Positions 2,296 to 4,032 of a DNA stretch of 64,000 nt are shown one piece after another. Position 1 is the stretch's first letter. Every line of letters starts with the position of its first letter. This DNA is from Pyruvatibacter sp. HU-CL02332 (GTDB taxonomy: Bacteria > Pseudomonadota > Alphaproteobacteria > CGMCC-115125): NCBI RefSeq assembly GCF_040362765.1, contig NZ_BAABWK010000001.1:1961501-2025500 (forward strand), written 5' to 3'. A program made the position numbers and the translations under genes. The notes beneath the pieces were generated by a model that made no database searches, had not been told where the DNA came from, and worked only from the letters and a program-made list of their open reading frames with translations.

Positions 2296-2320
2296 CAGAA
2301 ACGTCAGGCGCGAAAACGAA

Positions 2321-2352
2321 AAAGGCGGACCGTTTGGCGGTCCGCCTTTTTG
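2321..2352 (+). terminator. Rho-independent terminator after phoB
   Basis: A perfect 11-bp stem (AAAGGCGGACC at 2321-2331 pairing with 2339-2349) with a 7-base loop runs into a T tract. It ends the pst-phoU-phoB transcript. The A-rich bases before the left arm mean it may also work for the converging gcrA transcript. Confidence 0.9.
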
Positions 2353-2397: not shown

Positions 2398-2907
2398 TTA
2401 ACCGATCATGCGGTTTGGAAACTGCCGTGGACGATCCTTGCGTTCCCGACGGGAAGGAAGTGGCTGATAGGCCTTCTTGGCGTGGGCTGCGCAATAGGGC
2501 AGGCCGGGTGCAGAACGCTGCCCGCAGAAGTGGAAGCTTTCGTCGCCCGGATCACCATTTGGCCACTTGCAGGTCTGTTCGGTGAGCTCCAGAAGGTTTG
2601 CCTGGGCATCAGGGTCGCTGATGACTTCTAGCTCTTCGGGTTCTGGCGCCGGAGCAACGGCTGTCTTCTTACTGGCCGTTTCACGCCGGGGCGCTGCCGT
2701 TGACGCTGCACGCGGCGCGCGCGGCGCTGCAGGGCGGCGACGGGTGACGCGGGTGGGTGCACCACGGCCTGACAGGCCCAGACGGTGCACTTTACCAATC
2801 ACGGCATTACGAGTGACGCCGCCAAGCCGGGCTGCAATCTGACTGGCACTCAGCCCGTCGAGCCACATCTGCTTGAGCTGTTCAACGCGCTCATCGGTCC
2901 ACGTCAT
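2398..2907 (-). CDS. gcrA: Cell cycle regulator GcrA
   Basis: GcrA is an alphaproteobacterial transcription factor that binds sigma70-RNA polymerase and acts at promoters with CcrM-methylated GANTC sites, controlling S-phase genes. The N-terminal DNA-binding segment (MTWTDERVEQLKQMW, then ARLGGVTRNAVIGKVHRLGL) is nearly invariant in the family. A basic Ala/Pro/Arg-rich linker follows, then the Cys-containing C-terminal polymerase-binding part (TCKWPNGDP, HFCGQ, YCAAHAKKAY). Its 169 residues fit GcrA. It converges on phoB and its upstream region carries CtrA, DnaA and GANTC sites described separately. Confidence 0.97.
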   Translation of the reverse strand: MTWTDERVEQLKQMWLDGLSASQIAARLGGVTRNAVIGKVHRLGLSGRGAPTRVTRRRPAAPRAPRAASTAAPRRETASKKTAVAPAPEPEELEVISDPDAQANLLELTEQTCKWPNGDPGDESFHFCGQRSAPGLPYCAAHAKKAYQPLPSRRERKDRPRQFPNRMIG

Positions 2908-2971
2908 CGCATTTTCCCCCTACAAATCGCAGATGAGCGGTCACTTTGGGTGTAAACCACAACATCTCGTG

Positions 2972-2986
2972 TTAACCTTGAGTTAA
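2972..2986. promoter_or_regulatory. CtrA box (TTAA-N7-TTAA)
   Basis: Exact match to the CtrA consensus TTAA-N7-TTAA, flanked to give GTTAAC at both ends, 65-79 bases upstream of the gcrA start codon. This position would suit repression of gcrA by phosphorylated CtrA. Confidence 0.8.
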
Positions 2987-3001
2987 CCTACTATATGGCC
3001 C

Positions 3002-3006
3002 GACTC
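3002..3006. promoter_or_regulatory. GANTC methylation site (GACTC)
   Basis: CcrM-type recognition site in the gcrA upstream region, inside the spacer of the 15-bp inverted repeat. Confidence 0.6.
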
Positions 3007-3038
3007 GGCGGCAAGAGATGTTGTGGTTTTATAGGGGG

Positions 3039-3047
3039 TTATCCACA
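3039..3047 (+). promoter_or_regulatory. DnaA box (TTATCCACA)
   Basis: Exact match to the high-affinity DnaA box consensus, about 132 bases upstream of the gcrA start codon. Confidence 0.8.
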
Positions 3048-3054
3048 ATATATT

Positions 3055-3059
3055 GATTC
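3055..3059. promoter_or_regulatory. GANTC methylation site (GATTC)
   Basis: Second CcrM-type site upstream of gcrA, lying between the two DnaA boxes. Confidence 0.6.
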
Positions 3060-3082
3060 TAACGCTTCGCGAGGGCGTCGGC

Positions 3083-3091
3083 TGTGGATAA
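3083..3091 (-). promoter_or_regulatory. DnaA box, opposite orientation
   Basis: TGTGGATAA, the exact reverse complement of the DnaA box, 35 bases from the first box. The inverted pair suggests DnaA control of gcrA and possibly of the divergent permease gene. Confidence 0.8.
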
Positions 3092-3225
3092 AGGCCTTGC
3101 GCGAGGTCCCGCAGGGGCATACCTCCCGCACCAAGGGTCACATCACATAAAGACAGCTGGTTTTTGGCGCAGGGGTCTGCCATTGCGCCACCAGCAGCCG
3201 CTTTGCGGCAGTTCAGGGGGAACGA

Positions 3226-4032
3226 ATGACAGAAACACACTTTGAGCCCGGCGTCCGACGTTTTGGATCAGTCAACTGGCTTGGTCTCTGGACGCTTTAT
3301 CTCAAGGAAGTTCGTCGCTTCATGAAGGTGTTCACCCAGACCGTCGCCGGTCCGGTGGTAACAGCGCTTCTGTTCTTTGCAGTGTTTGCAGTGGCCATGG
3401 GCCGAGCGGACACGGTGGTGGCGGGCGTGCCCTACCTGGCGTTTTTGGGTCCGGGCCTCATCATGATGACGGTCATTCAGAATGCCTTCGCCAATACCTC
3501 ATCATCCATTCTGGTCTCCAAGGTGCAGGGCAGCACAGTGGATTTCCTGATGCCGCCACTCTCCCCCGGCGAGCTGAACGTGGCCTTCGCTCTGGGCGGC
3601 ATGACACGCGGCGTGGTTGTGGCCATTGCCTCTGCGCTGGTGATCTCGCTCATTGCCCCCATGGGCATTTCACATCTGTGGGCCGTCGTCTTCTTTGTCT
3701 TGGCCTCGTCCCTCGCACTGGCGCTCATGGGTGTCCTTGCGGGCGTCTGGGCGGAGAAGTTCGACCATATGCAGGCGGTGACCAACTTCATCATTACGCC
3801 GCTGGCCTTCCTGTCCGGCACGTTTTACTCCGTGGAGCGTCTGCCGGAGATCGCGCGCGTTATCAGCAGCTACAACCCGTTTTTCTACATGATTGACGGC
3901 TTCCGCTATGGGTTCACCGGTCATGCTGACGGGTCTATCGCCACCGGCGTTGTCGTGCTGGTGGCCATCAATGTGGTTCTGTGGAGCCTTTGCTACTGGG
4001 TCTTCAAAAAAGGCTTTAGGCTCAAGGCCTAA
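3226..4032 (+). CDS. ABC-2 type transporter permease
   Basis: Inner-membrane permease of the ABC-2 family (export of drugs, lipids or polysaccharides), 268 residues with about six hydrophobic segments. Features include the N-terminal TLYLKEVRRFMKV helix before the first membrane span, and ITPLAFLSGTFYSVERLP followed by YNPFFYMIDGFRYGF, which is the conserved ABC-2 ending. ATG at 3226 follows a GGGGG-containing RBS. No ATP-binding subunit is adjacent; its partner must be encoded elsewhere. The substrate cannot be told. Confidence 0.88.
   Translation: MTETHFEPGVRRFGSVNWLGLWTLYLKEVRRFMKVFTQTVAGPVVTALLFFAVFAVAMGRADTVVAGVPYLAFLGPGLIMMTVIQNAFANTSSSILVSKVQGSTVDFLMPPLSPGELNVAFALGGMTRGVVVAIASALVISLIAPMGISHLWAVVFFVLASSLALALMGVLAGVWAEKFDHMQAVTNFIITPLAFLSGTFYSVERLPEIARVISSYNPFFYMIDGFRYGFTGHADGSIATGVVVLVAINVVLWSLCYWVFKKGFRLKA

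Follow-up and report, generated by a model that had tools for sequence, protein, structure and literature searches.

Predicted NrdR-type operators interleaved with DnaA and CtrA sites at an alphaproteobacterial gcrA promoter suggest that the cell cycle is coupled to nucleotide supply

Introduction

GcrA is a driver of the S-phase programme in Alphaproteobacteria. NrdR is the repressor of the RNR genes, where it weighs dATP against ATP, and RNR promoters are its accepted targets.

Upstream of gcrA orthologues, a survey of the alphaproteobacterial cell cycle predicted CtrA, DnaA, GcrA and CcrM sites, a picture to which the present promoter bears a likeness; the same survey did not consider NrdR and found the DnaA-GcrA link to be little conserved (PMC2877005).

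The gcrA locus

The window, that is, the whole 64-kb stretch of DNA analysed, contains the intergenic stretch studied here at 2908-3225, between gcrA on the minus strand and a divergent ABC-2 permease gene on the plus strand.

2398-2907, minus strand: gcrA, cell-cycle sigma-70 cofactor, 169 aa, ATG at 2907 (PF07750, 186 bits, E 9e-55)
2990-2995, minus strand: candidate gcrA -10, TATAGT, called from the sequence, with TATWGT at the equivalent position in sister genomes and in other families
3226-4032, plus strand: divergent ABC-2 type transporter permease (NF011648, 209 bits, under the cut-off of 225)

The identification of gcrA is firm, despite a score under the stricter NCBIfam equivalog cut-off (NF050816, 186.5 bits against 280). 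A PF07750 profile search finds GcrA in single copy in the 3.45-Mb genome, and the closest named relative by GcrA is a Candidatus Phaeomarinobacter MAG, with 93% identity. The Pfam GcrA model also scores above its cut-off in the archaeon Sulfolobus acidocaldarius, used as a control genome. The divergent gcrA/permease arrangement recurs in 76 of 160 gcrA loci, Caulobacteraceae and Parvibaculum included, and given this wide linkage the two genes may be under shared control. Between phoB and gcrA, a hairpin GGCGGACCGTTTGGCGGTCCGCC flanked by A and T runs (window 2318-2351) is apparently a two-way terminator, with pstB, phoU and phoB just past it.

A canonical -35 element was sought 17 bp upstream of the candidate gcrA -10 and none was found, TTGCCG lying 13 bp upstream. 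The lack of a canonical -35 would fit a DnaA-dependent promoter, where it might be expected.

DnaA, CtrA and GANTC sites at the gcrA promoter

The initial annotation had placed DnaA, CtrA and CcrM-type sites together at this promoter and had proposed that the Caulobacter circuit acting on gcrA is kept here. The sites are the following, the lettered boxes being those listed further below.

2972-2986: CtrA-type site TTAACCTTGAGTTAA (TTAA-N7-TTAA), between boxes C and D, the sole exact copy in 64 kb
3002-3006: GANTC site (GACTC), present here, absent in G001
3039-3047, plus strand: inner DnaA box, TTATCCACA, with a 5-nt overlap with box A, in 4/4 genus genomes
3055-3059: GANTC site (GATTC), present here, absent in G001
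3083-3091, minus strand: outer DnaA box, TTATCCACA (forward-strand reading TGTGGATAA), in 4/4 genus genomes

As sites, all of these had been described correctly. The TTAA-N7-TTAA is perfect and unique in the window, the two perfect DnaA boxes stand in opposite orientation with 35 bases between them, the GANTC sites at 3002 and 3055 are both there, and every element lies at most 184 nt from the gcrA ATG. The only two exact copies of TTATCCACA in the window are those at the gcrA promoter, and none of 2000 dinucleotide shuffles of the gcrA intergenic region contained at least two DnaA boxes; at least one CtrA-type site arose with a probability of 0.003 in 2000 such shuffles. GANTC occurs 77 times in the window, and its two copies in the gcrA intergenic region have a shuffle P of 0.13.

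Comparison of the upstream regions within the genus bears out the DnaA boxes in all four genomes and the perfect CtrA box in three, with G003 reading TTCA, while both GANTC sites are missing in G001. Across the class, the strict DnaA box is present in 23 of 100 gcrA upstream regions versus 0 of 30 recA regions and 0.6% of shuffles, and the full CtrA-type site in 7 of 100 versus about 0.8% in shuffles, with 0 of 78 in the named set. The proposal of a retained circuit is supported for DnaA, whose boxes are invariant in the genus and enriched in the class; the CtrA site is rarer class-wide, and a CcrM-type input finds no support, because the GANTC sites are at chance level in number and are lost in G001. 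Overall, the proposal is partly supported, with evidence that is strong for the DnaA part, good for the CtrA part and does not support the CcrM part.

A gcrA promoter of the ordinary Caulobacter type, under the control of DnaA, CtrA and CcrM methylation and otherwise unremarkable, would account for perfect DnaA and CtrA sites that occur nowhere else in the window and for the class-wide enrichment of the DnaA box at gcrA. It also agrees with experiments in Caulobacter, where DnaA activates gcrA via one box (PMC3193534). However, GANTC is neither above chance nor conserved, the DnaA-GcrA-CtrA circuit was not conserved across Alphaproteobacteria in a 2010 survey (PMC2877005), and such a promoter leaves unexplained the invariant inverted repeat and the RNR-like pairs of boxes 31 bp apart that are described below; we regard it as an unlikely description of this locus. 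The promoter resembles that of Caulobacter crescentus gcrA (PMC3193534) in having a DnaA box upstream of the promoter of the same gene, but differs from it in carrying two perfect inverted DnaA boxes and a perfect CtrA site.

An invariant inverted repeat holding NrdR-type boxes

The initial reading of the promoter was incomplete in that it overlooked its best-conserved and most specific elements, which are boxes of the NrdR type. Two of them lie in an 18-nt inverted repeat whose arms are 94% complementary and 40 nt apart, with the candidate -10 and the CtrA site between them.

2954-2971: inverted-repeat arm 1, AAACCACAACATCTCGTG, holding box D
3012-3029: inverted-repeat arm 2, CAAGAGATGTTGTGGTTT, holding box B

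The repeat is found in all four genus genomes with invariant arm cores, and nothing else in the promoter is as strongly conserved as this repeat and the inner DnaA box. More than 50 bp in one block, running from the DnaA box to past the upstream arm, show no variation in the genus. The exact 12-nt arm cores, paired in this manner, are confined to this genus and absent from the remaining 381 of the 385 genomes sampled from the class. One candidate reading of the repeat, a motif restricted to the genus and bound by an unknown factor, was rejected when the relaxed motif CACNANATNTNGTG reached nrdA and nrdJ in the same genome. Since the arm core fits CACNANATNTNGTG, which has the shape of an NrdR box, the arms were read as NrdR boxes.

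With 18-nt arms and a 40-nt loop, the repeat could also be imagined as an RNA or cruciform structure, such as an attenuator or a terminator, with no operator involved. Yet only arm 1 would be present in a transcript started from the candidate -10, since arm 2 (3012-3029) is upstream of it, and the feature conserved class-wide is the spaced boxes and not a long hairpin. A search of Rfam gave no family above gathering score in the gcrA intergenic stretch. We consider a structural role of this kind highly improbable.

For NrdR proteins of three phyla, binding to paired boxes was measured with spacers of 14-17 or 24-27 bp, other spacers being bound about 100-fold worse (PMC12051234). With 16-bp boxes, these spacers correspond to 30-33 or 40-43 bp from centre to centre. 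To score the gcrA promoter, we used a matrix derived from 74 RNR-promoter sites alone, with the gcrA sequence excluded, from which the ranks and bits of the following boxes are taken.

2957-2972, minus strand: box D, ACACGAGATGTTGTGG, 18.2 bits, rank 1 of 63,985 window positions, in the downstream arm, abutting the CtrA site
2988-3003, minus strand: box C, degenerate half-site TCGGGCCATATAGTAG, -1.2 bits here, covering the candidate -10
3011-3026, minus strand: box B, CCACAACATCTCTTGC, 12.9 bits, rank 4 in the window, in the upstream arm
3043-3058, minus strand: box A, AATCAATATATTGTGG, 16.2 bits, rank 2 in the window, overlapping the inner DnaA box by 5 nt

The centre-to-centre spacings are 32 bp for A-B, 23 bp for B-C and 31 bp for C-D. 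With this RNR-only matrix, A-B is the top pair of the window at a permitted spacing (29.1 bits, 16-bp spacer). The C-D pair has a 15-bp spacer and reaches 21-25 bits in the three sister genomes; it counts as a permitted pair mainly in these, because box C is only a weak half-site here. Boxes A, B and D do not vary among the four genus genomes, while their flanks diverge. The gcrA promoter thus combines 16-bp palindromic boxes of the RNR type with a permitted A-B spacing, the features by which an NrdR operator is predicted.

Conservation of box pairs across the class

We extended the analysis to gcrA upstream regions from 100 sampled genomes (about one per genus) and 79 named genomes, with start codons assigned by a simple rule. 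For comparison, RNR promoters were collected from the same genomes; the first RNR set was dominated by PF02867 proteins of about 770 aa, and promoters of NrdJ (about 1230 aa and more) and NrdA were then added. The seed consensus used to collect the RNR sites was fixed after the gcrA arms had been seen, and the controls shared the same seed and matrix. As a side observation, the alphaproteobacterial PF02867 (RNR catalytic domain) proteins of about 770 aa mostly come without NrdR boxes, unlike nrdJ and nrdA in the same genomes.

Scored with the plain consensus, good boxes pair at exactly 31 bp in 25 of the 100 sampled and in 26 named gcrA regions, most other spacings counting 0-3, and the same peak at 31 bp is seen at the RNR promoters of the same genomes (27/48). 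The RNR-only matrix, at 31 bp and at least 14 bits, finds gcrA pairs in 43/100 sampled and 36/79 named genomes, compared to mean counts at other spacings of 5.8 and 2.7, respectively. The controls gave matrix pairs at 31 bp in 1 of 30 recA regions and in 0.2 per 100 shuffled gcrA regions, and none upstream of dnaA at any spacing tested (0/28). The count for RNR promoters with the RNR-trained matrix (37/48) is circular and was excluded as evidence; the matrix was untrained on gcrA, recA and dnaA.

Because genomes of one class are not independent, the spacing was also assessed with one sequence per family. The best pair stands at exactly 31 bp in 14 of the 43 families having a pair (p ~1e-13), and 21 of the 43 pairs fall at 30-33 or 40-43 bp (p ~8e-7). 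A counterpart of box D, 31 bp downstream of the box at the -10, exists in many families. The position of box C and its half-site (ATATTGTAG) recur in Bradyrhizobium, Nitrobacter, Bosea and others, and Bradyrhizobium, Nitrobacter, Bosea and Tardiphaga likewise combine the -10 half-site with a box placed 31 bp downstream.

It counts against the NrdR reading that fewer than half of the gcrA upstream regions reach the pair threshold. In the named set, boxes at gcrA are absent in Rhizobium, Ensifer, Sinorhizobium, Hoeflea and Martelella, and no box pairs were found upstream of gcrA in Rhizobiaceae, Hyphomicrobium and Microvirga. Paired NrdR-type boxes are retained at gcrA in Bradyrhizobium, Nitrobacter, Bosea, Tardiphaga and Pseudolabrys, where no adjacent permease is detectable. 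Since these lineages keep them, the boxes track gcrA.

In Caulobacteraceae, the boxes at gcrA promoters are mostly 41-42 bp apart (19/29, the family of G356 being taken as Caulobacteraceae because its GcrA is 76% identical to that of a named Caulobacter), and two of the three named Caulobacter genomes have them 41 bp apart. NrdR-type boxes at gcrA are shared with other Caulobacter genomes. This switch from 31 to 41-42 bp agrees with the helix-phase rule measured for NrdR (PMC12051234) and tells against some other, unknown regulator acting on the gcrA palindromes, which would share the NrdR motif and spacing by coincidence. Such a regulator would fit the observation that boxes B and D of the genus share AAACCACAACATCTC, longer than the NrdR core requires. 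But RNR promoters obey the same 31-bp rule and fit the same matrix, and we find a coincidence of this sort quite improbable.

NrdR and RNR genes in the same genome

The genome encodes NrdR (TIGR00244, 175.5 bits, cut-off 124.65), and the protein has D15 and R17, the base-contacting residues of NrdR in a solved complex (PMC9110341). Boxes of the same type as at gcrA lie upstream of nrdA, nrdB and nrdJ, the nrdJ promoter having two boxes 31 bp apart. Exact matches to CACNANATNTNGTG occur at six places in the genome, namely upstream of gcrA, nrdA, nrdJ and trpG and at two others; the genome-wide ranking comes from a scan with this pattern and about 40 loci out of that scan, and represents a sample.

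Two further observations concern these genes. A terminator-like hairpin separates nrdB from nrdA, and nrdB carries a separate pair of NrdR boxes with a spacing of 31 bp. Between trpG and a divergent gene for a predicted secreted protein (362 aa), an exact NrdR-type box, CACTATATGTTGTG, is located at G000:C2:472222-472235.

Discussion

We propose that gcrA is quite probably a member of the NrdR regulon, its promoter being a predicted NrdR operator array interleaved with DnaA and CtrA sites. The array is like the NrdR operators of RNR genes (Streptomyces coelicolor nrdRJ and nrdAB, E. coli nrdHIEF; PMC9110341, PMC12051234) in its 16-bp palindromes with conserved C/G pairs and in its box pairs, which are separated by three or four helix turns and sit close to the core promoter or over it. 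It differs from them in that the target is a cell-cycle transcription regulator and no RNR, and in that DnaA and CtrA sites are interleaved with the boxes, of which the genus has up to four.

We infer binding of NrdR at gcrA, with repression and its timing. When dATP is high relative to ATP, with little DNA synthesis, the DNA-binding tetramer of NrdR would occupy pairs A-B and C-D; with the -10 and the inner DnaA box thus masked, gcrA would be switched off along with nrdA, nrdB and nrdJ. Once replication begins to consume dNTPs, NrdR would pass to its ATP form, which is non-DNA-binding, and its release would allow DnaA to activate gcrA, so that gcrA and the RNR genes would come on together; CtrA would repress gcrA later. 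Transcription of gcrA in Caulobacter is highest shortly after the initiation of replication (PMC3193534), a timing that would fit a signal of dNTP consumption. For much of the Alphaproteobacteria, we lean towards direct repression of gcrA by NrdR, by which the dNTP pool would gate the GcrA-CcrM programme.

If true, cell-cycle transcription would answer to the supply of DNA precursors, and a direct, CtrA-independent path would lead from dNTP level to cell-cycle progression. This bears on the finding that Caulobacter cells with raised dNTPs are delayed in S-phase entry, an effect which is independent of CtrA and whose mechanism the authors call "undefined" (PMC12186491). The same study has a Caulobacter nrdR deletion strain, makes no mention of gcrA and reports no gcrA levels. 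Deletion of nrdR slightly increased spreading in soft agar and was additive to deletion of fssC (PMC12186491), so that NrdR cannot be the sole mediator of the dNTP delay there.

Paired NrdR-type sites at gcrA across Alphaproteobacteria suggest that the cell cycle is linked to nucleotide supply in a way that appears to be unreported. In the open-access literature we found no description of NrdR boxes at gcrA, and the open-access text examined that names both NrdR and gcrA mentions each independently; RegPrecise and supplementary regulon tables may list gcrA. A comparative study provides NrdR regulons for 186 proteobacterial genomes (PMC5343134). Among the matches listed in the open literature, none concerned NrdR in rhizobia and their relatives.

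The predicted link is specific to the single base and can be tested in Caulobacter. Some gcrA promoters of Caulobacteraceae (L377, L379, L389 and L404) show a further peak, with boxes 62 bp apart. This distance is twice 31 and suggests that a weak middle box of the array covers the -10 (CCTATTGTG).
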